A stretch of DNA of 64,000 nucleotides from Physcia stellaris (Eukaryota > Ascomycota > Lecanoromycetes > Caliciales > Physciaceae). This document shows positions 1 to 60,715 of this stretch, piece by piece. The notes beneath the pieces were generated by a model. That model made no database searches. It worked only from the letters and a program-made list of their open reading frames with translations, and was not told where the DNA came from. Both the position numbers and the translations under genes were made by a program. How positions within the stretch are numbered: position 1 is the stretch's first letter; each line of letters opens with the position of its first letter. The DNA lies in assembly GCA_018902385.1 (NCBI GenBank), contig JABSSW010000038.1, forward strand, positions 124,001-188,000, written 5' to 3'.

Positions 1-479
1 CGATTCAGCAATGACATCGTTTCGAAATGTCGTCATGCTATTCGCTTTTCACGATATTATCGTTGAAATGAAATGATTAAATTCGAAGTTCAATCATTTG
101 ATTGATTTATTTTCGCGAGATGAACACGATAAAATCGTTGACGAGTATTCACAATTGCAAATTCGTCATGATCAATTCGCGAATTAAATTTCGCATTCAG
201 CGACGACGTTTCAGAATATTGATATATTCAAATTTCGTTGAGCAGAATGACAGCACGTTTTCTGTGATGAAATTTGATTTCGAATATTCGCAAAATTTAC
301 AATTTCGCAATCAAATCATACGTGAAATTTTGCGCATTTGATGATTTTCAAACATTTTTTTTTAACATTTTCGTTATCGATGATTGAATGAATTCGTTGA
401 ACATAAAACGATTCAAATCGAAAATTATCAAAATTTACATCACGACATTACGTTTTGTTTGTGTGAATCGAAAATATTT

Positions 480-1104
480 CGATTTTAACGTTTTCAACGA
501 ATTTTTGTTATAACGCGAAATCGATGAAATCAAACGTATGTATGAAAAAAGCGAAAAACGTGAAAAAAAAATTATTACTCGTGATATTTTGCTAGATATT
601 TTGCAGTTTTTCGATATTCGTATCAAAAAAAATGCAACGTTGCACGTCGCATTTTGTTTGATTTTTGCAAATTTTTTGCGTATAAATGAATTTATTTGAT
701 CAAATGTTGATCGTATTTTCGAATTCAACAAATGAAATGTTATTCGTTTTTCGATGATTTTTTTCGATGATCATTTCATTTTAATTCTTTTTGTTTCGAA
801 AATCGATTCATTTCGCAAAAAAATTTCGATATTCATTGCGATCATCAACGATGTCGTTTGTGCGATGATTTCATTACGCAATTTTTTCGAACGTTTTTCT
901 GTTTCGACATTTTTTTTTCTATTTCAAATCGATCAATCAAAATTTTTCAATGCAAATTACGTCATCATCGTGCTACGTAAAGTGATTATAAATCTGAGTT
1001 TCGAAAACAATTATTCAAATCATTTTTTTCGACGAAACGTTGCAATTGAGATTCGCAATGCGAACGTTTTTGACGATTTGATCAAACTTTTAAAAAGATG
1101 AAAA
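480..1104 (+). pseudogene. Crypton-type tyrosine recombinase, decayed, 5' part
   Basis: Read through its stops, this AT-rich stretch gives a tyrosine recombinase of the kind carried by fungal Crypton transposons. It has an LRINEF-like segment (about 680-700), a DDHFILILFVSKID segment (about 765-805) and the conserved HxxRR catalytic block as NHFFRRNVAIEIRNA (about 1018-1062). This runs into LLKR followed by a stop where the family has LLGRW, which fits TGG changed to TGA. The frame then breaks at a gypsy LTR at 1105 and resumes after 7813. Such enzymes cut and rejoin DNA through a tyrosine. This copy is dead, with many stops and a 6.7-kb insertion. The N-terminal limit is unclear. Family assignment is recognition by eye. 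Confidence 0.7.
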
Positions 1105-1341
1105 TATCATGAGTCGTGTTTGAATAGACGTATTATTGATTAGCTAAACGAAGACAATAAGTCTGCAGAAACAAGTATGTACAAAATGATGAAATTGTAA
1201 ACAGTGTGCGAACGTCAAATCTCAAATCACGCTAATCTCGTCAAAGAATTAAAACATAATTCGATTCAAACATATTTGTTTAATCATTTATCATATCAAT
1301 TATCTATTTGTCAAATCTATTTGTCAGACATGTTCGTAACA
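1105..1341 (-). repeat. 3' LTR of the gypsy element
   Basis: This is a 237-bp direct repeat of 7577-7813. The two differ almost only by C/T and G/A changes. It is preceded on the element strand by a purine-rich tract. The left edge at 1105 is set by the GAAAA duplication. Confidence 0.88.
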
Positions 1342-2061
1342 TTATTTTCTTTTTTTCGCGAACGTCGTCTCGACGATTCGTTGTTGTTGCGAAATTTGAA
1401 AATCTTGTTGAGAATCTTGCTAATCAAATTGTATGACTGCAAAATTCAGAAATTTCACGATCATCATTTTTCATTTTCTAATATTTTAGTGTCATCTCAA
1501 CGTTCGATAAAATTTGACGACAATTTCTGAAAATGTTTTTGACACGATTCAGTTTTTCATGCGATGTAAATTTTGATTGTAAATAACATCGAAAAGATAA
1601 TAAAGATTGAACTGTTGAATAAAAATCGTGAAATCAAAAACAAATGAATGAAAATTGAATTCGTGACGTCAAATGCTAATCGAAAATAACTTCGATTAAT
1701 GTTAACATGACGATTTTTTTTCGAAAGCGACGACGACTCGCTGAGAAATCTGATTCGTTGACGACGATTTGAAATATTGAAATCAACGTTTTGAACGATT
1801 CTGAATTTGCTGTCGTGAAATGAATACGATGAAAATCGTTCATCACGTCGCGAACATTATCGAATTTTTCGTTATCGACATAATATCACGTTCGATCATG
1901 AAATCAGCTCGATCAATTGACACGATATTGAAAACGATTGTAATGATATCGAAATTTCAAAATATCGTTCATTTTCATTCGAAGTTCTCGTTGACTATGA
2001 CGAAATCGAAAAATTCATTGATTTGATTTTGAAAAAAATCACGAAAATCTTTGCGAAGAAG

Positions 2062-2877
2062 TCAACAATGAAACACATCGTAAATTCGCATGATTTTTGA
2101 CAATTCGAGTCGATAAAAATTGTTTTTACGTTTTAATATTTTGTATGAATTTAATTTTTTGTCATCAAACTTGTCAAATGATTTGATCGTCTTGATGTTT
2201 CGTCGATTCAAAAAAACGAAATCTTTCTCGACATATTTCACGATTTTTCGATGTTTGTTGATTTGAATTGTCATACGTTTTTGAATCATTTTTGCATGAT
2301 TTCGTACGTAATTGAGAATATTTTGCATCGTGTCGATGATATTTTCTGTTTTGACGATCAAAAGTCGTTTTCTCGTCGTAACATACGAAATAAAATTTGA
2401 TGAAAAGTTCATACGAAAATGAAAATTTTTATTGATGAAAAATGATGATAATTTTGTTGTTGCAAATATCGCGTTGTTGTTTGCAAATTCGATCATGAAC
2501 AATCAAACGTTTCAATCGTTTTGCATGTAATTGCAATATTGTCGCAATTGTTTCTCGATATTCTGATTGATTTTCTCGATTTGCTCATCGATTTCTGAAT
2601 GAAAAACGATGAAAAATTTACATTTGATATCGAAAATTTTGCAAAATGCTTGTCAAACGAATGATATGAATTGAGATTCTCGATTTGACGTTATAAAAAA
2701 AAATAACTCATGCGTACGAAACACGTAATTGATAAATATTTTGATCGTGATTTTCGCATTTGTATTTTCATCGTCGACGATGCAAAGCACGTAATGACGT
2801 TTTTTATTAAATTTGTCGATTATCGTGCAAATGACGTTGTGATCGTGAACGTCGAACAATTCGATGATAAAATTCAT
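2062..2877 (-). pseudogene. Retrotransposon integrase remnant
   Basis: The minus-strand frames 2653-2877 and 2062-2502 carry the integrase catalytic core (a MNFIIELFDVHDHN segment and ITSNRESQFISFV, where active enzymes have ITSDRGPQF). The C-terminal part follows, with TTKLSSFFINKNFH and the GPY/F-like region ending in YDVFHC. The catalytic Asp of the SDRG block now reads Asn, a GAC-to-AAC change expected from RIP-like decay. The enzyme would have inserted the cDNA. This copy is inactive. Confidence 0.82.
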
Positions 2878-3581
2878 GAATATGTCGATTCAACGTTGCA
2901 AAAAAATGATCAAAAAAATGAGTAAATCATTTTTTCGATTTCGAAAGATTTTCGTACGTTGACATTCATGACAATTGCGTACGTATCGTCGAACGAATTT
3001 GCGCATGTTGAGTCAATAATAATCGCGACGTATAAAATTTTTCATGCGATTAAAATTTGAATGCTTTGAAATCGAGAATTTATGAATTTTTCTGAAAAAA
3101 TCAACGAGTAAAAAGACGTCGACAGACATTTATAATCGATCATTTCGATATAAAGCATCGTTTTTTCATTGCAGTCTCGTAAGTTGATTTCGTTCATTGA
3201 TGTGAGATTTTGTTCGATAATTTAACGATATGTCGTGCAATCATCGTCAATTTTATTGACAATCAAAATTCGTTCGTAAATAAATTCGTCAAATTTTATC
3301 GCGTGAATTTCGAGTCGTTTTGAAATGAACAATATTTGTTTTCGATATTGATGTCGTTCATCAATTTCGTTTTTGAATCGAGAATCAAACATACGAGTCA
3401 AAACATTTGTTTTAACGTTTTGAGTTTCGAATTGAAACTGAATGACAATGTTGAATTTCGAAAGAATTTTTGCTCAACGAGTCTGACGAGAAATGAATTT
3501 CTTTGACGTCATGAAAATTTTCAATTTTTTGTGATCGATGAAAATTTTGATCGATTTCTCGATGTTTTCGAATTCAAAACG

Positions 3582-3803
3582 TCAATGCTTTAAACAACGA
3601 ATGATGATTAATAACTTTTTGTTATAAATTTCGTAATTGCACTCGACTAAAATCATGTTGCGACTGTAAAAAGCAACGAAATGCAACATTTTTTCGTCGT
3701 CGTATTGAAATAATATTTTTGCATTGACGTAATCAAAAAAATCGATTTTCAAAATGACTTGTTTTGTTCGATCGTAATGTCGTAATATGAAAGCTTTCGT
3801 CAT
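3582..3803 (-). pseudogene. Retrotransposon RNase H remnant
   Basis: The frame contains FDYVNAKILFQYDD and FYSRNMILVECNYEIY, the standard Ty3/gypsy RNase H blocks (active copies have AFYSRKM and ECNYEIYDKELL). It lies directly 3' of the reverse transcriptase on the element strand. It is degraded and non-functional. Confidence 0.82.
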
Positions 3804-3980
3804 TGTTTTCTTGAGAAAATTGAAAACTTCTTCGATTTTTTCAATTCATTCGAAATTCACAAATTTTTTGATCATTCGAATGAAAACTCGAATCTTTTTT
3901 GAAAAATCACGAATGAATCGTTTGTAGAAATTGACGAAATTCACGAAAATTTGTACTTTCTTCAAATTCGTAAAACGTTT

Positions 3981-4910
3981 TCAATTGACAATGATTTTTA
4001 TTTTTTTCGAATTCATGCGAAAATCATCTATCGATAATATGACGCTCAGAAATGTCATTTCTTTTTTAAAAAACTCGCATTTCTCAATATTCATCTGTAA
4101 TTCGACTTTTTTGAATTTCTTCAATATTTTACGAACGTGAACGATGTGCTTTTTCTTGAATTTGCTGTAAATGAGAATATCATTTAAATAGACTTGACAG
4201 AAATCGTTCAAAAAATTGAATAACAAATCGTTCATGTAATGCTGTCAACTCGCGAATTCGTTGATCAATTCGAAAAATAACACTCGATATTTGTATGATT
4301 TCATGAAAATAACGAACGTGATGAATTTTTCACTCTTTTCACTCATTCGAAGTTTGTTGAAAATCGATATAATATTCAATTTGATCAAATATTTGCAACT
4401 TTGCATTTTGACTAAAGTCTTTTCGATCAAGAAAATGAAATATCGATTGCGTTTCGTGATGTGATTAAATCGTCGATAATTCACACACAAACGCAATTGA
4501 TCGTTCGACTTGATTGCAAATAAAACGAACGAAACGTATGCAATCTGACTGAATACGATAAAACTTTTTTGAAAATTATCTTTCAAATACTTTTTGAATT
4601 TTTGAAGTTTGAATTCGAACAGAAAATATATTTTGCTTCGAAACAATAAATTGTTATCGTTTAAAAATTCGATTTTGTGATCGTAAAATCGATGCGATGA
4701 CAATTCAATTGTTTTTTGAAAATCGAATATTTTTGACAAATGTTTGAAATATTTGAGTATTTTCTTCATTATGCGTTCAAAAATCGATTTGATTTGTTCG
4801 TGTTTCAAAATTTCTTTGATCATGACAACAATTTTCAACGATTCAGAATTTGTTCGCAATGCTTTGAACGCGAAATCGATTTGATTGATCGTAATGAAAA
4901 AGCATTGCAT
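3981..4910 (-). pseudogene. Retrotransposon reverse transcriptase remnant
   Basis: Two frames (4245-4910 and 3981-4235) give a Ty3/gypsy reverse transcriptase. The segment LRLCVNYRRFNHITKRNRY corresponds to the family block LRxCVDYRxLNxIT. The catalytic Y-x-DD box appears as VYLNDILIYSKF, with the first Asp changed to Asn, and IEKCEFFKKEMTFL follows. The enzyme copied the element RNA. The active-site change and stops make this copy inactive. Confidence 0.86.
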
Positions 4911-5486
4911 TTTTTACTTTTTACTTTTGAAATCGACGAATAAACAAAAGAAAATTGCATCAATCATCGCGATATTCATTGAATCGTTTGAATTCAATCT
5001 CGATGATGAAAAAATCTCGAATTGTTGTTTTTTGATTTTTCAACGCTTGTTGCGTTGTCTTTTCAAATTTCTTTTTTTGATGAATGTCGTTTTCGTAATT
5101 GTTGTGATATCAATTTCTGAATCATTTGACTCGATGATTGACGACTCGTCATCGTCGTCGACGTTCGAGTGAATTGAACATTCGAAACATTTCGAATCGA
5201 ATACATTTGATTTATTCTCGACTGTAAAAAACAAAAATTTGATTTTGAAACGAAACAAAATGATATATCGAGATTTTATCATCGTTATATGTTTCGAATT
5301 GCTCTTTTGCGATAACACGATATTACGACGTCAGTTAGATACATTTCATCGACGATTTGATTTGAAAGTTTCCAAACGTCGAGTCTGAACAACTTGACTA
5401 AATATATTATCATGATGATTGCATTTGAACGATTTGAAAATCAATTTATCGTAAATCATGTTCAATATGATTTCATGTTTGTTCAT

Positions 5487-5819
5487 TCACGACTTTTCTA
5501 AAATTATCGAATGATTATTCAAATCGATGATTAACAAAAAAACGATCAACTCGAAATGCAATTCTATCGTTAATTTAAAATATATGACGTGAATTATTGA
5601 AAAAATCTGACGATCGTCGAATTCAGTCAATGATTTCGATTTCAATAAAAATACGAATTTCATGTTCAGCATGTTGCATACAAATTGCGCGATTTCTCTA
5701 TCAATGAATGCATAATTAATTGCATCAATGTTTATTAAAGTTTTTAATTTATGTTTATTATCGTTGAATGATAACGTACAATTGATGATTAAAAATCGCT
5801 TGATGAAAAAATCAAACAA
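5487..5819 (-). pseudogene. Retrotransposon aspartic protease remnant
   Basis: The frame carries LIINCTLSFNDNKHKLKTL followed by INIDAINYAFID, where active copies have a D-T/S-G-A catalytic block; it is mutated here to NIDA. It sits between gag and the reverse transcriptase, as expected for Ty3/gypsy. It is non-functional. Confidence 0.7.
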
Positions 5820-5989
5820 ATCATCGTTGTGAATAAAAAAAAGTTTTAAACATTCATCAATCGCGTTTTTGATGTGAATTGTTAATTTTTCGAATCAAAA
5901 TCACTCGATTCGACGATTAAATTCATGTACGATATTTGCATTTTGTGTCAATGACGTTTTTGATGTTTGTGATCGTTCGAACATTTTTT

Positions 5990-6511
5990 TCAAACGTGAT
6001 TCAATTCGTCACATGTGAAACATTTGTTCGTGACGATCAACTTGTCGATCATCGAATCACGAATTTTGATTTCAACGTTGAAATGTAAATGAGCTGTAAA
6101 TTTCACGAAAAAAATCGAAATGACAAATTTCGTAAAAAGCATCGAAATCGAAACGACAAAAATTGATTTGAATTGAAACAATTCAAAACGTTGTTGACGT
6201 GTCGCGATTTTTTTTTTTCGAAAATTCGATTGTCGATTGTATATTTGTTGCAAAGTGATTCGAATTTCGTCGAACGTGATGAATTCACGTGAATATACAT
6301 TCATCGTTTTTTTCAAATTTCAAAAAATTTTGTTCATCAACTTTTCGATTTTGATGATTTCGTTGTAATCAATTGAATTGCTAAAACGAAAAAAGATGAA
6401 GTAGAAAAATTGAAAATTTTGAATATTCATGATCAATGTTCGAAATTGATTACGCATATTGCGTTTGAAATCAAAATTTTCGTAAATAATGTTCAAAAAT
6501 TTCAACATCAT
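5990..6511 (-). pseudogene. Retrotransposon gag remnant with zinc knuckle
   Basis: Minus-strand frames 6320-6511 and 5990-6316 resemble fungal gypsy gag, ending in KCFTCDELNHV, the start of a CCHC zinc knuckle. They lie upstream of the protease on the element strand. Stops interrupt the frame. Confidence 0.65.
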
Positions 6512-7576
6512 ATGTTAAATCTTGAAATGATTCATATCAATATCACGAATCGATTGTATGTGATCATCGACATCATTTTCAATTCAATCAATCACAATAA
6601 TGATTGCGATCATGTTCGTGTCGTAATGATCAACGTTGATCGTCATTTTATCGTGTATTTTTGTTTTTCAAACACGTCAAATGAATTTTATTTCATCGAT
6701 GAATTTAAAAAAATCTGAATGTGTTTTGAAACGTCGTTTGTTCTTTTGAAAAAAATTAATTACGTTGATTTCATCGTCGTTTTTTTCATCGTCGACGTTC
6801 GAATTTCGTGCACGATCGCGAATCTTGATCAGCAAAACGTCGTGATTTTTTTTCCAAAAAATGTAATTCTTTTGCTTGATCAAAAATAAATCACGTTGTT
6901 TTTCGTATTCGTTTTTCAAAATATTCAACTCTCGACGAATTTCATTTAATTCGACATTCGTATTGATCAACTCGTCACGATCGACGCTGACAATATTGTA
7001 CAAATTCTGATATTGAGTCAAAACGTTCAGATAGTTGTCACGATCGATGCGTAATCGATCAAATTTTTTTAAAAAATCGACGATTTTATGATTGATTCAT
7101 CATTTCAATTGATCGATGATGACGATATTCAAAAAATGAATGATTTTTTCATTTTTCATTTTTATGAAATCGATCGTCGATACAAATCGACGACGTTTGA
7201 ATTAATCAACGAAATTCTCGTCAAAAAAATTGTCGTTAATTTCATGCAACATACGATTCACGTTGACGCGTAGCGTTTTGAAACGTTGTTTCATCGAAAT
7301 AGAAAATTCGAAAAAAGTTGTTTCGTGATGACTTCGAATCATAACTGAAAATGAAAAATTGAAAATGATAAAAAGAAAAGAAATTAATCGAATCAATTCT
7401 CGTCTTTTATCGTCGAAAATTTCGTCGTTGTTTCGTCAAAAAAGTTTTCAAGTCATTTGTCTGATCAACAAGATTTTTCGTCGTTTGTCTCGTCAAAAAA
7501 ACTTGATCGATTTGAGATTTTATTTTTGAACGCTCGCGTATCTCGACGAGCGATAAAAATTAAAAACTTATTGTAA

Positions 7577-7813
7577 TATCATGAGTCGTGCTTGAATAGA
7601 CGTATTATTGACTAATTAAACGAAAACAATAAGTCTGCAGAAACAAATATGTACAAAATGATAAAATTGTAAACAATGTGCGAACGTCAAATTTCAAATC
7701 ACGCTAATCTCGTCAAAAAATTAAAGCATAATTCGATTCAAACATATCTGTCTAATCATTTATCATATCAACTATCTATCTGTCAGATTTATCTGTCAGA
7801 CATGCTCGTAACA
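7577..7813 (-). repeat. 5' LTR of the gypsy element
   Basis: Partner of 1105-1341, with the same length and ends. It is followed on the plus strand by GAAAA and then by the resumed recombinase frame. Confidence 0.88.
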
Positions 7814-7818
7814 GAAAA

Positions 7819-7966
7819 TTCGAAACGTTTTTGTTGTATATCGAAAACAACAAAAAATACATTTTTCAAATATCGCGATATCATCAGAACGATTGAATTG
7901 CTTTTTTTTCGTTTTTTTGACGACGACGTCGTTTTTCGACGTGTTTTGAAAATTGTGAAAAAATAA
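7819..7966 (+). pseudogene. Crypton-type recombinase, 3' part after gypsy insertion
   Basis: Downstream of the right-hand GAAAA duplication the frame continues as FEKFLLYIENNKKYIFQISR, the natural extension of the LLGRW block at 1104 and the site of the family's catalytic Tyr (LLYIE). Removing the gypsy element and one GAAAA joins the two parts in frame. The gene was therefore interrupted by, and is older than, the gypsy insertion. Confidence 0.68.
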
Positions 7967-8505
7967 TTAAATTTTGAAAATTGCTTTGTTGAATCATTTT
8001 GTTCAACGAAATCGATTTTGCAAAGTCATTTTGCTTTGCAAAATCATTGTTTCAAATCGATCATATTCAAAACATCAAAAATTTTGTACATAACAATGAA
8101 AAAAGTACGTAACATTAATTCGTTCAAATTAAACATGAATGCTAATGCAAAAATGACGAAATGAAAAAAATTTGAAAAAATTGATTTTTTAATTAAATAG
8201 AAAATTAATGTTTCATTCATTTCATTTTTCATTTTTCGTTTTTTTTTTTGTTTCGTTCATTCATTTTTTGTTTTTGATTTTTTTCGACGTTTTCATTTTC
8301 TTTGAAAGCTTTTTTTCGCTCCGTAATTCAGTCGCAGAAACAGAGAAAGTAATTAAGTTTTGAAAGCTGTTTTGCTGAGTCACTTTGTTCAGCGAGGTCG
8401 GTTTTGCAAGGCCATTTTGCTTTGCAGAGTCACTGCTTCAGGCCGGCCATGCCCAAAACACCAAGGATTTTGTACATAGCAATGAAGGAAGTACGCAGCA
8501 TTAGC
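7940..8505 (+). repeat. Dispersed non-coding repeat (two tandem units, one heavily and one lightly mutated)
   Basis: About 150 bases at 7966-8112 match 8351-8503 nearly base for base, except that most differences are C-to-T or G-to-A in the left copy. Between them (about 8113-8350) lies the 5' part of a second unit. The same sequence occurs inverted at 35599-35937 and direct at about 60415-60715. A unit runs from a GTCCAGGCTAGACATGGG-like 5' end to a GTACGCAGTATTAG-like 3' end, about 340 bases. I see no open frame, terminal inverted repeat or Pol III box. Its right edge (about 8504) cuts into the zinc-cluster codons of the next gene. Confidence 0.75.
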
Positions 8506-12729: not shown

Positions 12730-14459
12730 TCACTCCATTCGCATGACTTTATCGCAGTTGAGGATACATTGAGGATCTAGGGCAAGCTTGATCTGTGATG
12801 GTATCAAAAGATCAGCCCCGCTCTCAGATCCTCTATTCGGGGAGGTATACCTTCCGCATCATATCGACAGCATTGTCGCCGACTTCCTCAACGAGTAAGT
12901 CCCTTAATTTCAGGCCGATGCCGTGCTCTCCTGTCACAGTGCCTTCGAGCTCTATAGCTCTCCGCTGTACACGGAGGATAATATCCCGAGCGGCATCCTC
13001 GTCTTGTTTGGGGCAGACTATGGCAGTGTGGTAATTTCCTACATTAATCATTAGTAAGATTCAGCGTTGCGTTCGACTTCCAAAACCACTCCATTGTCCA
13101 AATGCAATGTTCGAAACCGAGGATATAGCTTACCATCCCCCACGTGACCAAGGGTACAGCCGTGAAGACCTGCCTCCCCAACCATACCGTTCGTCCAGTC
13201 GATCATAGACGCGAGTGAGCCAATTGGTACTGCAGCATCTGTATTCAGGAAGAGGTCGCTCGGATCCTGCTTCATTGCCTGCATGCTGGGAGCGACTTGT
13301 TTCCGAGCCTCCCAAGCCACTCGGACATCGTTCTTCCCTGATAAAATCAGAAAATCCTCGCAGCTGTTTTCCACGGCAGATTCCCGCGCGAGATCAAGTT
13401 GCTCCTGCACCGCCTGGTTAAATCCAGAGATTTTGAGGAAAAGCGACGGTTTCTCTTCCCAGTGTTGCGAGGAGAAACCCGATCTGTTGATGGCGTTCAT
13501 GCTGTTCTGATCGAGCAACTCCAGAGCATCGATAGGGAGCCCGTGTTGGATAAGAGCAATAGCGGCCTTAACGGCTTCGTGAGTGCTCGGAAAGGCAGCT
13601 ACAACCACATGCTGGTTTTTGGGCACTGATGTCACCTTGAGCACAGCTTCTGTGACCATGCCAATTGTACCCTCCGATCCCACAATGAGACCCGTGAGGT
13701 CGTAGCCAGCTGATGACTTGCGTGGTCGATTCCTAGTCTTCACGATTGTGCCGTCGGCGAGAACGACGGTCATGGAAATGACCCACTTTCTCATCGTGCC
13801 GTGACGATAGGCGTTTGTGCCCGAGCAGTTTTGAGAAATCTGGTCACTTCGTAAATGCGGACACACATAGTAATAATGAGAACCAAGATACTTACCATGC
13901 CACCGATCCTCGCTCCAGGCCCCGGGTCAGGGGGAAAGAAGAGGCCTCGCTCTTCCAACACGGCATTAAGCTCCTGCCACCCGACCCCTGGTTGAACGAC
14001 CACATCCATGTCTTCAGCATGTATCGCCACAATTTTCTGCATCCTGTTAAAGTCGATGCAGATTCCGCCTCTCGTAGCGTTGAGAGCACCAGCGAGACTG
14101 GTCCCGCCGCAGTACCCGTAACAGGTTATCCTTCGTCTAGAGCATATTTTCAGGATTTCACTGACCTCGGGAGTGCTCTGGGGCAATACGACTAGTGCAG
14201 GGGTTTGGGAGGGAGGACAAGGCGACCAGATGGTGGAAGAATGTGCTCGGAGTATCTCCTGATCGGAAGTGACGTTGTCACTGCCCACGATAGCAATAAG
14301 TTCTTTGCACGCCGCCGCAATATTCTCAGTGGAAATGTCATGGTTTAAGAATGGTGCTTCGGACAACGGGGTCGTCGAGTCGTTATTGGCATTGGCATTT
14401 TCATTCGGATGGTGTCCATTAGCCTTTTGCGACCTATCAGATTCTTGGGCTATTGCCAT
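12730..14459 (-). CDS. FAD-linked D-lactate dehydrogenase / glycolate oxidase-like protein
   Basis: Four exons on the minus strand (14459-13896, 13839-13134, 13038-12851, 12792-12730) splice in frame to about 505 residues, normal for the family. Introns start GTAAGT, GTAAGC and GTATAC. The FAD_binding_4 domain shows YCGGTSLAGALN and PPDPGPGARIGGM, then NCSGTNAYRHGTM. The FAD-oxidase C domain shows GHVGDGNYH across the exon 2/3 joint, GEHGIGLKL, and a C-terminal ALDPQCILNCDKV. Members oxidise D-lactate or related D-2-hydroxy acids to the keto acid with FAD. The N-terminus is Asn/Glu-rich without an obvious mitochondrial presequence, so location is uncertain. A second, mutated copy of its 5' half abuts the NRPS at 32236, which ties it to that gene as a cluster partner (inference). 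Confidence 0.88.
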
Positions 14460-15529
14460 CTTCAGATATCTGGTCTTCGTCTTAGAAGAAGAGTAAACGC
14501 TCTACGATGAACCAAGCTCGGGGTCTAAGCTCTCGGCTAGGTTGTTGAGCCAATGATCCTGCCACTGTTATCGAAATAAAGCTATGGCATAATCCGCCTC
14601 GATACTCTATCTCAATTGATGAGCTTGTGTCAACAAGTTTGACGAGTATGATCTTACGAGCATATATGCAACACAATCCATGCTTTGACGTCATGAATCT
14701 ATGGAGTTTCTACGATCTAAGCAGCGATCACTGTCGTACATTTTACGATGTCACACTGCATAACCGACAGCCGTTTTTCGGATCTCTTGAGGTTTTTGCC
14801 GACACATAACCCGAAGATCCAAATCCTCATTCATGAGAAATTTGAAATGGAATGGCCCATTTCTTACAAGAGGGCATTCGCCTAGTCTCGCCCCTGGAAA
14901 AGTTGAGCGGAAATTCCTGTGACACAGCTTCGTATCATGAAGGCAAAGAGAAATGGAAAAAGACCATTACGACCTAGTGGCTCCGGGCACAAGTACAGAG
15001 GATGTTATTATCTTTACTCGTTCTCGCAGCGAGCGACTCGCGATTGGGCGGCGTCTATCCCTATTGGTGGGTGAATTAAGCCCGAGAGTAGCCCGGGAAG
15101 CCTAACCCAGTGTAGGCTTGGGGTTAGGGCTCTAACAGCGAGGACTAGCGTCATTTTCTAAGCCGAGGAAGAGCACCATTCATTTGGTACCGTAAGGATC
15201 ATCGGACAACCTGTCATCCAGGCATCTGCTCTACTGCGTCTTGCTCTAGTCTGATAATTGGAAAGCGCTACTCCATTTGCTTTTGTAATGTCAGTTCTGT
15301 ATAGACATTTCGTTGGATCAATGAAACTGTGCCGGCCTAATTTGTTTACCTCTCCACTGCTTCGATCCCCACACAATTAGTGAGGCTCGCTCTATCTTTT
15401 GGTCAGCGGTAATCTCAATGGGCTCATAGTTGAGTGAAAAGAAAAGCAATGGTATAGTCTCAACAAGATCACATGGTTCAATCGAATTCGACAGAAAAAA
15501 GACAGACGTAGATAGTACGAGGCTTCAAA
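14460..15529. other. Intergenic region upstream of the dehydrogenase and HET genes
   Basis: The first 300 bases (to about 14760) are the dehydrogenase promoter and are duplicated at 32840-33173. About 15020-15150 is GC-richer. No convincing coding sequence is seen. Confidence 0.5.
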
Positions 15530-18234: not shown

Positions 18235-19560
18235 TCAGAGATCCGCAAGGATGTCTCGAAGCCCCAAAACGATTGCCCTCGCAGTCTCCTCACTAGTCAG
18301 CCTCCGATTGCCCTCAAATGACAACACGAGCGTTCCCCCTTTCGGCGTGCCATAGACCTCCGGCCGTGTCCTCGGAAGCATCTTCCTCTCATAAGCGGTA
18401 ACACGACTCGGCCTGCCCAAAAACTCGAAACCGTCCGACTCTTCGCTTTGCTGGAACGCGGTGCGCCAGCCAAAGTCCCTGACGTGTGCGGAAGTGGACC
18501 AGTTGGTGCATTGCCGGATGATCTCGTCCATGCCTAGGCCTTCATGTGAAGAGTCTTCGAGGAACTGATGATGAAGCTGCTTCGCCACTGCCAACAGCGT
18601 GTCGGTGGGCTTGACCGATATGCGAATGGGGATCTCTGATAGGCATGGTCCCATGGTGTTTTGCAGAGCACTGGGTAGCATCGAGCGCCCGGTGACCAAG
18701 CGGCCGATGATCAGTTCTTCTTGCTGGAAGTGGCGAGACAGAACGATACAACAGGCGGCATGGAAGATTGTTGCTGGAGAGTAAGCATCCGTGTTTACTG
18801 GCATTGGTATCGATTCCTCCATTACCAGTCGATCTTCAAGACCATATGCTCGAGCTGGTGGTGTCGGGTTGCTCGTGCTCCAGTGGGGAAATGCCGAACC
18901 CTCCAGTCTTCGAGTCCAGTAAGCCAAATTTGTCTTCTCTCGTTGCTGATTGAACGCCATGAATTGTGCGAAGGTCGGCGGTTTGGATAGCTTTGCTCCC
19001 GCGTACAGACTAGACAGGGTTTCGAGAAGCAGGTTCAACGAATAGCCATCGAATTGAGCGTGAGAGAGTCTGAAAACCAGCCTATGCCGCTCTGAATCAT
19101 GTTTAACAGTTATGAACCGAATGAATGAGGAACCCAAAACTCGTCTTCTTCTCAAATCTTTCTCACATAATGCATCGACGAAGGACGGCAAGTCCTCATT
19201 TCTGGATTCGAAGAGCTCGAACTCTGGCTTGAAGTTTTCCAGTTGGACCTGCAAGAACTTGCTATCGGTGTGAATGAATACAGTGTGTAGGATATCAAAG
19301 CAGTCCACAAGCTCTTCGCACGCCCGCTTTAATCTCGAAAAGTCCACCTCTGAAGGTAAGTCTAGGATCCAATGGTGCCATCTGCTGGGGGGGTCCTGCA
19401 AGTTGTCTAAGATTGCCTGTGTCTGGAAAGCCGAGGTGGGCAAGACATCTTTTACTTCTTCTGCTTTCGAGTCAAGCAAGGGAAGTACAGAATCACGAAC
19501 AAACGATGCTGTGTCGATTTCAGGTGGGAGCAGTGAAAAGGGGGCTTGTAGCTGTAAGGT
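18235..19560 (-). other. NRPS terminal condensation-like (CT) domain
   Basis: It starts after T4 with an APFSLLPPEID linker and VLPTSAFQTQAIL. It has SHAQFDGYSLNLLLETL in place of the HHxxxDG of ordinary C domains and ends the protein with GLRDILADL. In fungi such domains cyclise and release the peptide. Pieces of a second copy lie at 33174-33208, 35503-35598 and 35938-36000. Confidence 0.75.
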
Positions 19561-22500
19561 GTCTTCTCCTACCGAGCTATATGTTACCACCTGTGCTAAA
19601 CGACAGAGACGCGGCGTTCTGAAGATATCTGCAACAGTCAGTGATATTTGCTGTTTGCGCGCTGCTCCTACCAATCGCATAGCTGCGATAGACTCCCCGC
19701 CGATTCTGAAGAAGTTACTTTCTGCGCTGATACTTGAGGATTCAAGACGCAGAATCGAGGACCATAGAGCTTGCATGCGTTGCTCCATCACAGTGTTGGG
19801 TGCACGAAATTCGTCCTCACGCTGATGTAATTGAAAGTCCGCGAGCATCCTTGTTGTCTGCGCACTTCCCATTTCGCGCAGGACTCGCCTATTGATCTTA
19901 TTAGTGCCCGTTACGGGCATTTTTGCAAGAGGTATATAAGCTCCTGGAAGCATGTATCGTGGTAGGCACTCAGAAAGCCGCTCTTCAACACCTTTCAAGG
20001 CCAGCCTCAACTTAGTTTGCAAGTCTTGCTTTGACGTCTCCAACGCTCCCTTCATCTCGACCAGACTGACGAAAATCGCAATAATTGGACTTTCGGCATC
20101 TCGTGGTATTATCATCTCTGCGGCAATTGCATCACACACGTTCGGATCGTGCAGGCTTGATCGGACGTTGCACTCGATTTCGCTCAACTCGATCCGTTGG
20201 CCTCGAAGCTTGACCATTCCGTCTTTGCGGCCAATAAAAGTGAGTGTCCCATCTGAATTGTAGCGTAAAAGATCTCCAGTCCTGTAGAGCCTACTCTTTC
20301 GTCCTTGGTGTCCCGTATGGCCTCGGCGGAGCCATTTCGGAGCGTCGATAAACGCCGCTGCAGTTTTGTCCGGGTCTCCAAGGTACTCTCGTGCAATGGT
20401 CGGACCCTCGATCAGGAGTTCTCCAACTGCCGCGATGGCTGCGAGCTTGTCAGGACAGCCGGGCCGAACGAGCCAGACTCGAGCTCCGAAGGCATATCCG
20501 ACGTGATTGTTGGGAGAATTCGCGTCAAGTGGATCTATTGACAAAGCCCCTTGAGCATTCTCTGCCGGACCATAGATACCGAGGATGTTCTCTGCTTGGG
20601 TCCAGCGGGACACTTCGAGGTTGAGGATGGGCTCGCCTCCCATGACCAATGTCTTCAGCCCCGGCAGTGCAGACGGATCCAGCGATGCCGCTACCGAAGG
20701 CGGGAAATGTACGTAATTGGCCTGCAGCCGGTTGAAAGCGCCGGCGAAATCGTTCATACGCTCCCATTCGGACGGTATGCAAAGACAGCCCCCGCGAATC
20801 AGGGTATTGAGCAAATTCGACCACGTAATGTCGAAGCTGTACGAGACGAAGTCGAAGATCCTAGAGTCTTCTCCGACAAGCAGTGCGTCCGCCTGATGTG
20901 TTACGGCGGACGAGAAGGCTTCACTGGTCATAACGACCCCTTTCGGCACACCTGTCGAGCCTGACGTGAAAAGAACGTAAAGAGTGTCCGATGGAGAATG
21001 CTTGCGCTGAGACATATGGCTGTCTAGTACGGGGACTGTGTGAGGTTCCGAAAAGCGCGTACTGTCAACGACGATTACGTCGCCGTTCGAGATTCGCCCC
21101 GCTAAACCCAATTTACTGGCAGATGCTAGTACGAGCTTCGGTTTGACTTGACTAGTGATAGCCCGCAATCGCTCTTCAGGTTGCTGCACATCCAAGGCCA
21201 CACAAGCCGCGCCGGCCTTGATTGAGCCCAAAGCGGCTACCGGCTGCCACATCGATTTTTCAAAGCACAGGGCAATGATCATGTCCTTCCCAGCTTCCAG
21301 GGCAATCAGCTGACATGCTAGCTGATCTGAAAGCTCATGAATTTGTTTGTACGAAAGCGATCCATCCCATGCACGTACGGCTTGTGCTTCAGGCCGAAGA
21401 CGCACGACCTTGGCGATCCTATCTTGAACGCTTGTCTGCACGGCATCAGGCAAATGAGCATTCCACTTCCATAGCTCGTCTAAGTCTTGCGGGCTCGTCA
21501 TGTCTATCTCCTCAACTTTCGTGTAGCCTGACTCACAAATTTGACGCAGCACATGCTCGAATTGAGCAGCGAGTCGTTCTATCTGCGCCGCGTCAACCAC
21601 ATTGGAATCAAAACTCAGTTCCAGACCTAGGCTGTTGGTATGGCTGAGCTGACACATAACCAAGAGAGCGTGAGGGTTGAAGTTGCCAAGCCCACTGACA
21701 GATGATTTGAGCTCCGTCCAAGATTCGAAAGGACTCTCGCTGTCATCTATACGAGAATCACCCTGTACAGTCGTTGGAGGTTGCACGACCAGGAGAGTAT
21801 TGAAACGAGTAGCCCGCTCCGTGTCGGCATTGATCTGGCGAATATCAAGAAATTCGGTCTGTTCGTAAGCAATCATGTCAACAGATTGTTGATGTACCCT
21901 TTTCAAGAAAGCGTCGACCCGTTCTCCTGGTTCCAATCTAATCCGGATGGGCAGAGCAGCGATCAGTGGAGCGATCATGCGTTCAATGCCCCCAATTGGA
22001 GCTTGTCGACCTGTGACCAGGGCTCCGAAGACCACATCATCGGAATCGGTGTGCTGGGCAGCTAGAATGGACCAAGCTGCTCTAATGATCGTCGAGGCCG
22101 TGACATCTTGCTTGCCGAATTTTGAAGGTAAATTGTCAAAGGTCCGACGAAGGGCGCTGTTAGCCTTGGGTTGATACCCATGATGAGGTAGAGGTGGAAA
22201 AGGAATAGCCTCAATCCCCGAGAACTGGCACCGCCAGAATTCATTTGCCTTGTTTTTGTCCATAGTCTTCACATGCTTCATGAAAGCCTGGAACGAGGTC
22301 GCGGTGGGAGCATTAACTTTTTGATATCATGCACCGGATGCAAGTATGCTTTGCTGACTTCTTCGAATAGAAGCTTCAACGAGTAGCCGTCGTACATGGC
22401 GTGATGCTGCGTCAAAAGACAAGAACGTCTTCTATCACCATCGTCTCCTGTGGAATCAATTATTGTGAGCCGAGTGAGCGGCTGAGCCAAATTCATAGAT

Positions 22501-25500
22501 CTACGCGAACTCTTCTCAAAATATTCATCGACATCATGACAATTATCCCATTCGATTGCTTCATCCACTTGTACTTGGACAAGCCCGTCCCCCATCGACA
22601 TATCGACAACTCTACAGCGTAATATTGGTGCCTTTGATCGGCTGACCTGCTCCCAGGCTTCTCGGAGGCGATTCACGTCCACATGTTCACGCAACTTGAG
22701 CTCGAAAGTGGCAATACAGTCTCCCGGCCTCTTTGCTGTCATTGAAAGAAGTTCCTTTTGCGCACCGGTGCATGGGAAAATGTCCTCGATGTTCGAAACA
22801 TTGACACCACATTGGTCTGCTGTTTCGCGCACAAGAACGTCTTTGTCTTGTGGTTGTTTCAGTAAAGAGAACGGCTCGATTATATCTGCTGTCACTTTTC
22901 TGTTGGCTTTCGCGTTATCAACAGCTTTTGCCATCTCGCTTAGTCGCGGCGCAGACAAGACATGTTGCACGGTTAAGGATATGCCCTGGCTGCGAGCAAG
23001 TGATGCCAGTCTCATCGCCGTAATCGAGTCGCCCCCCAAACGCAAGAAGCTGCTATTTGCGCGGATCTTTTCCCTGGGAATGTCAAGAACGGTTTCCCAC
23101 AGCTGCTGGAGGTGAGTTTCTGACGCTGTGCTGGGTGATCTCCCCTTTGAAGAAGCCTCTTGAAGCTTTAGTTGCTCGATATCCAGGTTAGCTCCAATTG
23201 TTTGGAGCCGCCTTCTGTCCACCTTTCTCCCGGCAGTCATGGGAATCTCCTCGACTGGAATGTAAGCAGTGGGTACCATGAACGAAGGTAGCTGCTCGGG
23301 CAACTCGACATTGAGTTGATCCAACAGCTGATCGAAATCAGACCTACTGTCATTTTGCTTGAATTGCACAAAGACAACCAAGGTTGCTTTTCCAGTGACT
23401 TGGGGAATAACAATCTCGGCGACTACAGCAAAGCTGTCTTCAACGCGCGCTTTCACGCAACTTCGGACGTGATGCTCGACTTCAGAAAGCTCGATTCTTT
23501 GCCCACGAAGCTTCATCTGTGTATCGCTCCTCCCAACGAAGATGATTGTGCCATCCACGGGGTTGTATTTCACAAGGTCCCCCGTTCTGTACAATCGAGC
23601 TCTTCTGCCAGGTACACTGCCATCGGGTGCTCCCTCCAGAAGCCACGGCGGATCCGTCAGAAAAGATGACGCAGTCAGATTCTCATCTCCCAAGTAACCT
23701 TGCCCAACCAGCGGACCCTCAAGATAAAGCTCCCCAACCGCGCCAATTGGCGACAGTTGCCCACCGGAGCGCGGATCTACGATCCAGGTTGAAACGCCCT
23801 GTCCATTGCCTATAGAGAGCTTTGACGGAAGAAGTTCCAGGCTTGTTAGTCTCCAATACAGCGAGATTGCGGAGCATTCCGTGGGTCCGTACACGATGAA
23901 GGTATTCTTTGCGCAAGTAAGCCATGGAGCAACATCAGCCTTCAACACTTCCTCTCCACCAATATAAATGTTACGAATTGTGGGTAATTTTGAGGGGTCC
24001 AGCGACCGGGCGGTAGCTGGAGTGAGGAATATGTCAGTGGTGCGGTGGCCGCAAATGCTTTCTGCCAGGGAGCTGCTCCTTTCCTCATCGCTAGGAATGC
24101 ACAAGGTACCGCCAGCAGCCAAGATGTGGAAAGCACTCCAATAGCTTGCGTCGAACGCGTATGACGAGAAATCGTAGACTCGGGAGTTTCTGTTCAGCCC
24201 TAGGATATTCTGTTGATGTACTATTGCGCTGCTGAAGTTTTGATGTTGTATCATACACCCCTTTGGAGTCCCTGTGCTTCCAGAGGTGAAGATTACGTAC
24301 AACAAACCAGTTGGTTCAACCACTGGCAGCCGCTGCTGGACTTGTGGGGTCATTTTGTTCTTCCAGCCATGCACAATATCTGTGTCAGGGCCTATTATCA
24401 ATGTCTTCATCGCCAACCTCGATGAAAGCTCTGCATTTGCGATGGAGGAAAGTATAAGCCTTGGCTGGACTCGCGACAGCATGGCCTCAAGCCGTAGGGT
24501 TGGTAGCGCAGAGTCCAGCAATAACCCAGCAGCACCAGTTTTCACTACGCTTAAGAAAGCCACCGGCATCCACATTGACTTCTCAAAGCATAGCGGAACA
24601 ATTGTATTTCGCTCTACCCCAATATCGATCAAATGACATGCAATAATGCTAGAAAGTCGGTCCAGCTGTTCATAAGTCAGATCTCCATCCCATGCAGAGA
24701 CTGCGATGGAATCCGGCTGAATACGTGCGATATCAGCGATTATCTCATGCACACAGCGTGAGTTTGTCTCGACAGCTTTAGAGTTCCACTTCCAACACTG
24801 ATTGAGGTCTGAGTCGGTCATCGTACTGACCTGAGAGACAGGAATTCCATTCAAGTCTCGCCAAGAGCATAGCTGACTGAGGACTCGACCAAAATGCCGC
24901 GCCATGCGATGCAGTGTTTCATGCTCAATTACTCCGAGAGTCGAAGCTGAACTCTACCTGTAGATGGTCTGCACCTACAGTGCACACCATCATCAGGGCA
25001 TAAACATTGAAGTCATCATAGCGGCTGCTTTGGTGCTTTGACGAGTTCGTAACAAACAGAGCGCTGTCCCCAATGCCCACCTCCTGCGGCTGCACCACCA
25101 ACATGGTCTGGAATTGACACGCCTGTTGAGCCTCCTCGCTCACCCGAGCTATATTCGACAGCCCAGTGTGTTCATACTGGATCAAATCCGTCGCTTGATG
25201 TTGCAAATTTTGCAATAGATCGTGACACACCTGCTTCTCAATGAGTTTCACCCGTATGGGTACAGCGGAAATGGTTGGGCCTGCGAGTCGCTCTATCCCT
25301 GCAACGGGTACTTTACGGCCCATGCTGATTGTTCCGAATACCACGTCGGGAGTGGCTGTGTATTGCGAGCACATGATTGACCATGCTGCACGGACTACTG
25401 TCGAAGGAGTGAAGTCGTCGACTCGCCAGGGTATGTTGGCTATTGTGTGGGAGATAGCAGAGGTGGCTTTTGGTTGGAATGTCACTGATGGGAGAGCGGG

Positions 25501-31500: not shown

Positions 31501-32235
31501 CCAAATCTGCTTCTACGACTCCTTGGCTTGAAACTGACACTGGCTTTACGAAGAGACCAGTTCCTTGATGGCTCCCACTTCGGACCACTGGTTGAACCAC
31601 GAGCAGGAGTTGGAACTCACTGGCATCGCGGAGAAGCGAACTGATACGTCGAACCCGCTGTAGACCATATTGCTCATGCTCTGCAATTTCTAGCGCTTGG
31701 TCTTGTATCTGTTTCTTGAGTTGCTCAACTGTCTGATGCTGATCTAAACTGACTCGTACGGGTGTTGTCGCGATAGTAGGCCCTGTGATATTTTCAATGT
31801 TAGGAATGGGAGCTTGTCTGCCGCTCGTTGTTGCTCCGAAAATGACATTGTTCGAATTAGTGTATGAGGCCAACAAGATTGCAATCGCCGAACGGATCAC
31901 ACTTGACGGTTGAAAGCTCGTTCGTGACCATTGCAGATTAGGCATACTGTATCTGAAGTCCTTCTTCGGTTGATTATCAGAAATGGATGACGGGAAAACG
32001 GAAGCTTCTGGGCCAGCGAGCTGGTGTTCCCAGAAGTTGACTGCTGCTGGGCTATCCAGAGTCATAACGTGCTTGACGAACGGTTGAAAAGGGGCCAGGC
32101 GAAGATCTGTAGACTGGACGCCACGATAAACTTCTTCCACAGCATTTAGGATAAGCTTTATGCACCATCCATCAAAGATAGCATGATGAACTTCGAGACA
32201 GAAAAGCGATTGGTCATCTAGAATTAGGCCTGCGA
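18235..32235 (-). CDS. Four-module non-ribosomal peptide synthetase, 5' truncated, four frameshifts
   Basis: A single minus-strand coding region of about 4,660 codons reads partial C - A1-T1-C1 - A2-T2-C2 - A3-T3-C3 - A4-T4-CT. Frames change at 28355-28368, 25999-26013, 24932-24942 and 22318-22322. Each change is a one-base indel, three of them at short homopolymers (T/C, G and A runs). On both sides the domain sequence continues without loss. The 5' end is cut inside the first C domain just upstream of HHAIFDG (about 32190), where a copy of the dehydrogenase gene begins. Internal C domains keep HHxxxDG (HHCLYDG, HHSIYDG, HHAMYDG). The last C domain has SHAQFDGYS, the form typical of fungal terminal CT domains that release by macrocyclisation. 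No epimerase, methyltransferase, TE or R domain is seen. The product would be a short, probably cyclic peptide; substrates cannot be named from sequence alone. The gene is a pseudogene unless the indels are assembly errors, and the lost 5' end is real either way. Confidence 0.93.
19610..21460 (-). other. NRPS module 4: adenylation A4 and thiolation T4
   Basis: A4 has FTSGSTGVPKG, IYGPAEN, YRTGDLLRYN and KLRGQRIELSEIE. T4 has FFRIGGESIAAMRL, with Glu for Asp next to the attachment Ser. Pocket read: D-I-S-H-V-G-I-Q-G-K. Confidence 0.75.
22930..24790 (-). other. NRPS module 3: adenylation A3 and thiolation T3
   Basis: A3 has FTSGSTGTPKG, VYGPTE, YRTGDLVKYN and KLRGQRIELSEVE, all intact. T3 has FLRLGGDSITAMRL. 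Pocket read: D-A-W-F-Y-G-V-A-I-K. It looks catalytically competent. Confidence 0.75.
26210..28000 (-). other. NRPS module 2: degenerate adenylation A2 and thiolation T2
   Basis: The core motif reads LLSSGSTGEPKRILWSH, with Arg where the family has Gly after PK. The A8 region reads FKIRGNLVAPEPIEHHI instead of RGxRIELxEIE. The carrier motif reads FLQRGDSIQAMRL, one residue short of LGGDS, but the phosphopantetheine Ser remains. Pocket read: D-A-I-C-A-C-W-T-A-K. This module may be inactive or specialised. Confidence 0.65.
29440..31250 (-). other. NRPS module 1: adenylation A1 and thiolation T1
   Basis: A1 has the core motif LFTSGSTGAAKGILWSHG, NWYGPAE in place of the usual N-YGPTE, and KTGDLVKYD. 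The pocket positions read by eye give D-V-L-C-V-A-W-V-A-K. T1 has the intact carrier motif FLQLGGDSIGAMRL (about 29500-29530). The upstream C domain is truncated at 32235. Confidence 0.75.
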
Positions 32236-33173
32236 TATCTGATCACTTCGTAAATGCGAACACATAAAGTAATCTCAAGAACTAAGTAAAATATTTATCA
32301 TGTCACCAATCTTCGCTCCGAGCCTCGAATCAGAGAAAAAAAGAAATCATGTTTTTTCAACACGACATTGAGTTTTTGTCACTCGATTTCAGATTGAACG
32401 ATCACATTCATGTTTTGAACATGTATCGTCACAATCTTTTGTATTCTGTTAAAGTCGATGCATATTTCGTCTCTCGTAGCGTTGAAAGCATCAACGAGAT
32501 TAATTTCATCGCAATAATCGTTACAGAATATTTTTCGTCTAAAGCATATTTTCAAAATTTCATTGATTTCGAAAGTGTTTTGAAACAATACGACTAGTGT
32601 AAAAATTTGAAAAAAAGAACAAATCGATCAAAAAATCGAAAAATGAGTTCGAAATGTCTTTTGATCGAAAATGACGTGATCATTGTTCACGATAACAATC
32701 GATTTTTGCATATCGTCGCAATATTTTTCGTTGAAATGTCATGATTTAATAACGATATTTCGAATAACAAAATTGTCGAGTGAATATTGACATTGAACTT
32801 TTCATTCAAATGATCATCGTTAATCTTTTGCGATTTATTATGTGTTTGGGCTACTGCCATCATCGGATCTCAGTTTTGGGAAAAAATAATGCGCTTTACG
32901 ATGACTCAAGCCCGCGGTCCAGCTCTCGGCTAGGTGGTTGATCCTGCCACTGTTGTCGGAATAGAGCTATGGAACAACCCACCTCGCTATCTCAATTGAT
33001 GAGTTTGCGTCAACAAGTTTGACTAATAGACTCAAGAGCATACATGCAAATTTCCATAATTTGACGTCATGAATCTATGCAGACGTCCGGTTTCTACTAT
33101 GGACAGAGCTGAACGTATGGATACAATAGTTTTAAGCAGCGATCACCGTCGTGCATCTTACAATGTCACACTG
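32236..33173 (-). pseudogene. Second, partly mutated copy of the dehydrogenase 5' half and promoter
   Basis: The sequence aligns along its length to 13838-14757 (end of intron 1, exon 1, promoter). The coding part 32260-32830 is full of C-to-T and G-to-A changes, while the promoter part 32840-33173 is almost unmutated. It is fused on the left to the cut NRPS C domain (about 32235) and on the right directly to NRPS tail sequence. It cannot encode a working enzyme. Confidence 0.9.
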
Positions 33174-35598: not shown

Positions 35599-35937
35599 GC
35601 TAATACTGCGTACTTCCTCAATTGCTATGTACCAAACCTCGTGTTTCGGGCCTGGCCGGCCTGTAGGCTTCCTTCATGAGCGAACAGCCCAGCAGAGCAG
35701 CTTTGAGAGCCTAGCTACTCCCCTGCCTCTGTGACTGGGTTATGGAGCGAAAAAGAAGGAACAAATCCTCACAAGGAGGTGAAAACGCCGAAGGAGGCCA
35801 AAAAAGGAGTCGATGGGCGGGGCAAAAGAGACGAACGATGAGGAATGGAAGGAATGGGGCATTAACCTCCTATTTAACCAGGACGCCAGCCCCTCTAAGC
35901 CCCTTTAATTTCGTCCTCCCTGCAATAGGACCCATGT
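35599..35937 (-). repeat. Dispersed repeat copy inserted in the NRPS relic
   Basis: Inverted copy of the repeat at 7940-8505 and 60415-60715. Because its host sequence is known from 18780-18840, this copy defines the unit ends: about 339 bases, from GTCCAGGCTAGACATGGG to GTACGCAGTATTAG on the minus strand. Confidence 0.75.
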
Positions 35938-36000
35938 CTAGCCTGGACGGATTTACTGGCGTTGGTATCATTTCTTCCATTGCCTACGGTACTTCACGCT
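35938..36000 (-). pseudogene. NRPS CT-domain relic, right part
   Basis: GATTTACTGGCGTTGGTATC and the following bases match 18792-18840 of the NRPS tail at roughly 80 percent by eye, continuing the relic interrupted at 35598. Confidence 0.7.
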
Positions 36001-55469: not shown

Positions 55470-56288
55470 CGCATGATATCAGCTCGCGTACGGGTTGCTG
55501 TTATGCTCTTGTCCATACAATAGCCGTCCTGTCTCCTACGTTACACGTCCTTCTATGCTACATAGGCTGAGTCTCCTTCGTGAGGGTGCGCAACTCTATT
55601 CTTCATGTTTTCATTTATCCTTTATGTGGAACTGTAACAGGGTCAGGTCTGATCTGCCAGACCCTCTCGTTCAACTCAAGATTTACTGCCGTCGTTCTCA
55701 GGTTTCTCTGTACCTGCTGGTTGAGTTTGCTGGTTATAGAGGGACAGCCGGTTTCGCATATCAGGATGAGACAGACCCGTACTTATACCGCTATCATTGC
55801 GAAATTACCAGCCTTTGAGAAGCGACAGCGATTGGCAAGCAAGGATAGGATGTCATCAGGGCCCCGAAACGAAGGTTCAGTGAAATAAGTTAGAAGTATA
55901 GCGTGGTCGCCCATCCATGAGATTATCACACGTGTTACTGTAGAACTGTACTACGCCATCGACTATTACCGGGGCTTTGATTGTTAGCAAGAGGCCTGCC
56001 CACGTCAAGAAGCTTATGGGAACAAACCGAACAATCATTTCCTTGCTAATCTTTCATATACAAAATGCACTGCCCCAAGTCGGGGAACGGTCAATGTGAT
56101 TGAGTGCTACGCCAGGGCTCGCTTGGAAGAGTTCCTTGACTTACTCTGATCCTCTCATCCAGAACATTTATCAACCTTACAGACCAATGCTGACCTTCTA
56201 TAATTGTCGTTCATCTTGTCTATTCACTCAAGCCAATCTCGACTAGTAAGTAGACTCCTTTCCCTCTTCTTTCCCCAAGAGATCAAGG
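55470..56288. other. Intergenic, with possible 5' leader intron of the coiled-coil gene
   Basis: GTAAGT at about 56249 and CCCCAAG at 56280 could be an untranslated-leader intron. No coding sequence is recognised. Confidence 0.4.
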
Positions 56289-60309: not shown

Positions 60310-60414
60310 AGTAGTCCGAAGAGTAATTGGGTTGATTTGGCAGATTGCTACTTCAAAGCCGTGTTGTACTTTCATCCACCGTGAGAAGGAGGCCGCCATG
60401 GCCGGCGATGATAT

Positions 60415-60715
60415 CTCGTCCAGGCTAGACATGGGTGCTAATGCAGGATGATCAAATGAAAGGAGCTTGGAGGGGCGGGCCTCCTAGTTAAATAGAAGGT
60501 CAATGTCAATGCCCCATTTCTTCCATTTCTCATCTTTCGTATTTTGCCTCGCTCACCCACTTCTTGTTTTCGTTCTCCTTCGGCGTTGTCACCTCCTTAT
60601 GAGGCGTTATTTCAGATGCAGGGGAAGTAGTCAGGCTCTGAAAGCTGCTCTGCTGAGCTATTTTTCGCTTATGCAGGAGGTGTACAGGCCGGCAGTGAAG
60701 GAACTAAAAAGCATT
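60415..60715 (+). repeat. Dispersed repeat copy
   Basis: Runs from CTCGTCCAGGCTAGACATGG to about GGAACTAAAAAGCATTAA and matches 35937-35599 (inverted) and 8113-8503. It shares AGTTAAATAGAAGG, CACCTCCTTATGAGG and CTGAAAGCTGCTCTGCTGAG. It is unmutated and has no coding capacity. Confidence 0.72.

Follow-up and report, generated by a model that had tools for sequence, protein, structure and literature searches.

What process could leave more than 8 kb of a fungal chromosome rich in A and T, crowded with CG dinucleotides and almost free of CC and GG? The question is raised by the left end of a stretch of 64,000 nucleotides from Physcia stellaris (contig JABSSW010000038.1, here C38, positions 124001-188000; genome of 44.0 Mb in 147 contigs), referred to below as the window. 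The repeats of this AT-rich block were very probably hit by a homology-linked C-to-T hypermutation resembling repeat-induced point mutation (RIP), which acted on both strands in the order CpC > CpT >> CpA >= CpG, and we infer that a RID-class enzyme was responsible. Contexts were counted on both strands; CpY denotes CpC plus CpT, and CpR denotes CpA plus CpG.

Loss of CpC and CpT from the block and its repeats

The GC content of window 1-8330 is 0.293, compared with ~0.48-0.49 in the remaining window. Its odds ratios, both strands combined, are 0.01 for CC, 0.35 for CT, 1.24 for CA, 3.0 for CG and 0.37 for TA. CC and GG together occur at 3 sites where 356 are expected (standard deviation 17.1; 200 mononucleotide shuffles), and CG at 537 where 180 are expected (maximum 206; a separate 200 shuffles), in full agreement with a sequence-only reading of this DNA, which had described the first ~8.2 kb as AT-rich, abundant in CG and nearly devoid of CC and GG. 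The isolated CC which that reading placed at 6854 is exact; the one placed at 5352 is really at 5372, 20 bases off, and 8321 completes the three. An extent of 1 to 8330 had also been proposed: the right end proved to be window 8321, and the block was found to start 3.07 kb to the left of the window, at C38:120928. From that point, 8,444 bp (C38:120928-129372) contain no CC or GG at all; normal window DNA has no run of this kind longer than 210 bp.

The changes behind this composition were counted in a ~390-bp repeat, one copy of which spans the right edge of the block. The reference was an unmutated copy with a GC content of 0.55 (L020:5280-5672); a second copy, 98% alike (L023:5050-5437), is also unmutated. 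Eight mutated, AT-rich copies were each aligned singly to L020; those at L022b and L019 and the window copies at 35599 and 60411 were omitted. Of the 925 substitutions, 893 belonged to the C-to-T class, with C>T seen 479 times and G>A 414 times; by context this class affected 513/578 CpC (0.89), 354/486 CpT (0.73), 23/430 CpA (0.05) and 3/206 CpG (0.015) sites. For CpY versus CpR this gives a Fisher p of ~1e-243, calculated over sites that are not independent, the copies being related. Both CpY classes exceeded both CpR classes in each of the eight copies, and CpC and CpT each exceeded CpA and CpG in all 57 of 57 alignments between AT-rich and GC-normal copies at the loci sampled, many of which share copies and are thus not independent.

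Slow deamination of 5-methylcytosine at CpY in repeats that are silenced, with no burst of mutation, would also yield C-to-T changes on both strands, and a DIM-2-type gene is present (see below). However, 867 of the 1064 CpY sites were changed in the eight copies, with 32 other substitutions in ~3,100 aligned positions; slow decay would leave far more of the latter, and so tiny a background makes this explanation improbable.

The base on the 5' side matters little at CpC (0.82-0.94; ACC 43/48, CCC 180/192, GCC 180/219, TCC 110/119) and more at CpT (TCT 79/85, ACT 40/64). The rare changes at CpA lean to ACA (8/47) and TCA (7/72), and TCG was never changed (0/47). A single-strand cytosine deaminase of the APOBEC-like kind, editing element DNA, would produce C-to-T mutation that is strongly context-dependent, as here. 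Known deaminases read the 5' neighbour, whereas in these copies the 3' neighbour decides and any base may precede CC; moreover, mutation also reached a copy of the ribosomal DNA (rDNA) and a fragment of a gene, and the nearly equal number of hits on the two strands argues against editing of a single-stranded copy. On these sequence features, such a deaminase is very improbable. CC and CT are also dipyrimidines, as damage by ultraviolet light or a similar agent would require, but TCA and TCG were largely or wholly spared, and their density in the block is 1.9x normal, TpC being kept or enriched. Dipyrimidine damage is contradicted by this retention of TCA and TCG, and with mutation confined to repeats, neither it nor a general AT-biased drift can be given more than the slightest credence.

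A partly mutated copy, L019:4857-5255, has lost 40/73 CpC, 20/62 CpT, 1/53 CpA and 0/26 CpG, and the difference between the first two indicates that CpC is hit first. The sequence-only reading had derived its pattern of change from the pair 7966-8112 and 8351-8503, and the counts there support it (CpC 12/13, CpT 18/20, CpA 2/26, CpG 0/8). It had taken 8351-8503 to be an intact twin; this segment is largely unmutated, but instead of standing as a separate copy it forms the outer end of the ~390-bp unit at about 8118-8505, the inner part of which is mutated. In ten ~390-bp copies, CpY was mutated at 14/79 sites in the last bin, as opposed to high fractions deeper inside the unit. Past the repeat edge, 18-43 CC/GG sites lie within 300 bp in 8 of the 10.

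The gene duplicate, the rDNA copy and the genome sample

A duplicate of a dehydrogenase (FAD-linked oxidase) gene region had been said to show mostly the same pattern, and it does: with 32236-33173 aligned to 13838-14757, the changes are CpC 73/102, CpT 47/113, CpA 13/123 and CpG 11/102. Within the mutated part, 32231-32840, they are CpC 71/85, CpT 39/70, CpA 12/85 and CpG 9/72 (CpY versus CpR, Fisher p = 4e-26), with ordinary divergence in the background. The pattern stops near 32860, inside continuing homology (32841-33173: CpC 2/17). This is the only close pair found: besides itself, the mutated copy was matched by its twin at 13838-14757 (72%) and by a short segment (68%). The mutated stretch is adjoined by an open reading frame (ORF) at 28331-32242 (-) resembling a nonribosomal peptide synthetase, which seems to start inside a condensation domain; it is the last in a series of such ORFs (condensation, AMP-binding and PP-binding domains), in changing frames, over 18235-32242 (-).

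On contig C41, an rDNA copy comprising the end of the small-subunit gene, the 5.8S and the start of the large-subunit gene (L033, C41:44399-47552) is heavily mutated; it was the sole 5.8S match, among the best 39 of 2644 candidates. Against the Rfam consensus (all of the 5.8S and positions 1-453 of the 28S model), changes at conserved positions were CpC 13/14, CpT 10/24, CpA 0/15 and CpG 0/18. Taking all positions, the 5.8S gave CpC 13/15, CpT 8/12, CpA 0/21 and CpG 5/26, and the 28S gave CpC 55/87, CpT 34/58, CpA 6/39 and CpG 9/48. In the small-subunit part of this copy, several hundred extra bases are inserted close to the 3' end.

For a wider view, 624 tiles of 500 bp were taken from the window and from loci L013-L045, a non-random sample in which most loci lie around repeat matches or contig starts and L034-L045 were placed arbitrarily (96 tiles, 26 AT-rich). 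AT-rich tiles, defined by GC < 0.35, numbered 193 of the 624 and came from 18 loci on 15 contigs. The most depleted CpN was CC in 186 of these and CT in 7, CA or CG in none; at the arbitrary loci it was CC in 26/26. CC plus GG amounted to 2.3 per kb in AT-rich tiles versus 113 in normal tiles, and the AT-rich odds were 0.40 for TpA and 3.2 for CG. CC odds above 0.3 were seen in eight AT-rich tiles, several of which coincide with the edge of a block and one (L031) with the start of a contig. Another AT-rich tile, L024 1-500, has no CC, low CG (odds 0.39), high CA and repeated AAATCATTG-like words.

The order CpC > CpT >> CpA >= CpG thus recurs in the repeat, the gene pair, the rDNA copy and the tiles of other contigs, as a target preference unlike the CpA of Neurospora, which is what the sequence-only reading had concluded; CpA was not the main mutated site in any comparison made to check it, and CpG was not depleted. 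Of the general marks of RIP, a C-to-T excess on both strands and mutation in repeats that fades at the edge were both found. The Neurospora-type signature, CpA preferred and TpA enriched, was absent (CpA 23/430 versus CpC 513/578; TpA odds as above), and so was the CpG-type repeat mutation of Masc2 and the basidiomycetes (CpG 3/206, with CG enriched in the AT-rich tiles). Standard RIP criteria of the RIPCAL type, with thresholds from published passages (the usual thresholds being taken for RIPper), were positive in 1/193 AT-rich and 13/413 normal tiles.

The preference also alters how coding sequence would be lost. In window 1-8330, TAA occurs 280 times versus 735 expected, TAG 39 versus 305 and TGA 625 versus 305, and TGG occurs twice versus 127 expected; stops here arise by TGG-to-TGA changes. 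With TAA and TAG scarce, TGA doubled and TGG nearly gone, gene breakage differs from that of classical RIP. The longest stretch free of stops spans 222 codons, compared with a maximum of 128 in 20 shuffles, despite a GC content of 0.29, because TA dinucleotides are rare.

Candidate enzymes and the elements of the block

The sequence-only reading attributed the changes to a DNA methylation/deamination machinery, and the genes present are consistent with such a cause. A profile search with PF00145 (DNA methylase) found three genes, on contigs C3, C5 and C6. That on C3 is a 1118-aa open frame in which the methylase domain is accompanied by DUF7893 and by a BAH match below threshold. The gene on C5 (L015 4221-6700) is a two-exon model of 934 aa with motif VI reading LEQT, and that on C6 (L013 2906-4449 onward) a three-exon model of 508 aa with motif VI reading MEET; motifs I, IV, VI, VIII, IX and X are readable in both, and the two proteins share 43% identity over 297 aligned residues. 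We take the gene on C3 to be DIM-2-like and those on C5 and C6 to be of the RID type. When the longer exon of the RID-type genes was compared with the PDB, only general C5 methyltransferases were returned.

In the mechanism we favour, a CpY-recognising cytosine methyltransferase of the RID class would turn C into T on both strands wherever a pyrimidine follows, with CpC as its first target and CpT as its second; as RIP is known to do, it would probably act before meiosis. Saturation would strip CC/GG and most CT/AG, and C would survive only before purines, so that CG and CA would look enriched. It is tentatively proposed, with slightly less than even confidence, that such an enzyme, perhaps the shorter paralogue with MEET, switched its 3' recognition from A to a pyrimidine; the Neurospora preference would thereby be reversed, the RIP indices evaded, and genes lost through TGG-to-TGA and not through TAA/TAG.

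Two mutators might instead share the work, one methyltransferase paralogue acting on CpT, as reported in some fungi, and another on CpC. The two diverged RID-type genes, with their different motif VI, would suit this division, and from copy to copy the mutated fractions of CpC and CpT are to some extent uncoupled (66/73 and 33/60 in L027; 60/73 and 48/59 in L021). Nevertheless, mutation of CpC and of CpT coincides in individual copies and tapers off at shared edges, no copy with one class alone was seen among the 57 alignments, and one enzyme with a graded preference for a 3' pyrimidine is simpler; a pair of mutators therefore seems rather unlikely.

Several observations weigh against a RIP-like process driven by a RID-class enzyme. 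The names RID-type and DIM-2-type are assignments by characteristic motifs and architecture. CpY is not in excess among the changes of the twin at 13838-14757 (counted in reverse, CpC 4/26, CpT 4/72, CpA 13/127, CpG 6/96; one pair), and RIP in Neurospora crassa usually hits both members of a duplicated pair. L022 and L027, the two of the ten copies that depart from the edge pattern, border AT-rich DNA. Solo ~390-bp copies have fared unevenly: L020, L023 and window 35599-35955 were spared and L019:4857-5255, with GC-normal flanks, was partly mutated, and no clean length threshold can thus be drawn. Even so, the direction of change, the order of contexts, the involvement of both strands, the association with repeats and the fading at their edges are read directly from the aligned sequences. 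On those features the process is one that works like RIP, yet it is not of the Neurospora type, because CpA is not preferred and two-sidedness was not seen in the one pair examined.

The block itself appears to be a nest of transposon-like repeats (Table 1). Segment 3001-4000 of the inner element was found at 39 other places with 89-94% identity, among the best 40 of 326 candidates. The element is taken to be inserted in the outer one because several other copies show the flanking repeats picking up again at 7814, and 1106-7813 may be read as a retroelement of the long terminal repeat (LTR) type nested inside another repeat. CpT/ApG sites account for 18 of the 19 transitions that separate its LTR-like pair past the first ~20 aligned bases. 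The ~390-bp unit also occurs solo elsewhere, with at least 47 matches. Far to the right, the AT skew of window 57001-60000 is strong (+0.29 to +0.33); the long ORFs there (56250-60309) have a coiled-coil look, and the first of them has no Pfam match.

Table 1. Repeats and mutated sequences located in the window.
Feature	Position	Strand	Remarks
AT-rich block, nearly without CpC, poor in CpT	1..8321		Right part of C38:120928-132321 (11.4 kb)
Outer repeated element, left part within window	1..1105		12 other copies, 90-95% identity over 101-1100
Left LTR-like direct repeat, inner element	1100..1341		Exact first base uncertain
Inner element, high copy number	1106..7813		Probably inserted in outer element
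Right LTR-like direct repeat, inner element	7575..7813		~240-bp pair with left repeat
Right end, outer repeated element	7814..8505		With 1-1105 matches other loci as one element
Mutated partial unit	7966..8112		Aligned to 8351-8503
~390-bp terminal repeat unit of outer element	8118..8505 (about)		Mutated inside; 8322-8505 (final ~180 bp) largely free of mutation
Twin of 32231-33173 without mutation pattern	13832..14757		Overlaps start of FAD-linked oxidase ORF 13051-13926 (-)
CpY-mutated duplicate, FAD-linked oxidase gene region	32231..32860		Twin at 13832-14757
Dispersed ~390-bp copy, GC 0.52, scarcely mutated	35599..35955	-	Versus L020: CpC 3/66, CpT 4/52
Partial dispersed ~390-bp copy, lightly mutated	60411..60668	+	Versus L020: CpC 10/50, CpT 3/39

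Comparison with known systems

RIP is defined and detected by CpA-to-TpA indices; with a single positive among the 193 heavily mutated tiles, a genome such as this would be listed as free of RIP despite the strong mutation of its repeats. In a survey of 1,239 fungi, RIP-like defences are stated to share a CpA preference (PMC12543289), a statement that would need a caveat. A preference for CpA, with or without CpT, is likewise given in several other reports (PMC5555474, PMC7493409, PMC4133081, PMC10998396, PMC2621366), and passages of another describe CpA, CpT and CpG signatures only and tie them to methyltransferase classes (PMC4352252). A literature search, the coverage of which did not extend to the main survey of contexts (Clutterbuck, 2011), returned no report of CpC-first RIP.

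The nearest likenesses are partial. In Magnaporthe oryzae, Botrytis cinerea and Sclerotinia sclerotiorum, CpT is a major target and RID is present, as here, but CpA accompanies it and no CpC signature appears in the passages concerned (PMC4352252). CpC changes also occur in Monilinia, as CpC-to-TpT double mutations, but alongside classical CpA-to-TpA RIP (PMC8959702). The Pucciniomycotina (TpCpG/CpG) and Rhizoctonia solani AG8 (CpG) resemble the present case in not using CpA, but their target is CpG, the context most spared here. In the table of single-nucleotide polymorphisms for AG8, CpC changes are the closest spaced of the four (214 bp), and the authors call the bias CpG (PMC4014442); those data are heterokaryon polymorphisms in a basidiomycete.

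With RIP in N. crassa, the process in P. stellaris has in common C-to-T change on both strands in repeats, AT-rich blocks, and RID-type and DIM-2-type genes. It differs in that CpC comes first, TpA is depleted and not enriched, and the dehydrogenase twin escapes. With RIP in Trichoderma reesei it shares C-to-T change in duplicated sequence. The preference in N. crassa is CpA > CpT > CpG > CpC, and T. reesei prefers CpA and CpG with CpC least (PMC5496416); the least preferred site of the two fungi tested is thus the first one here, and this order makes the reading of the 3' base by RID-class enzymes testable through sequence comparison across fungi.

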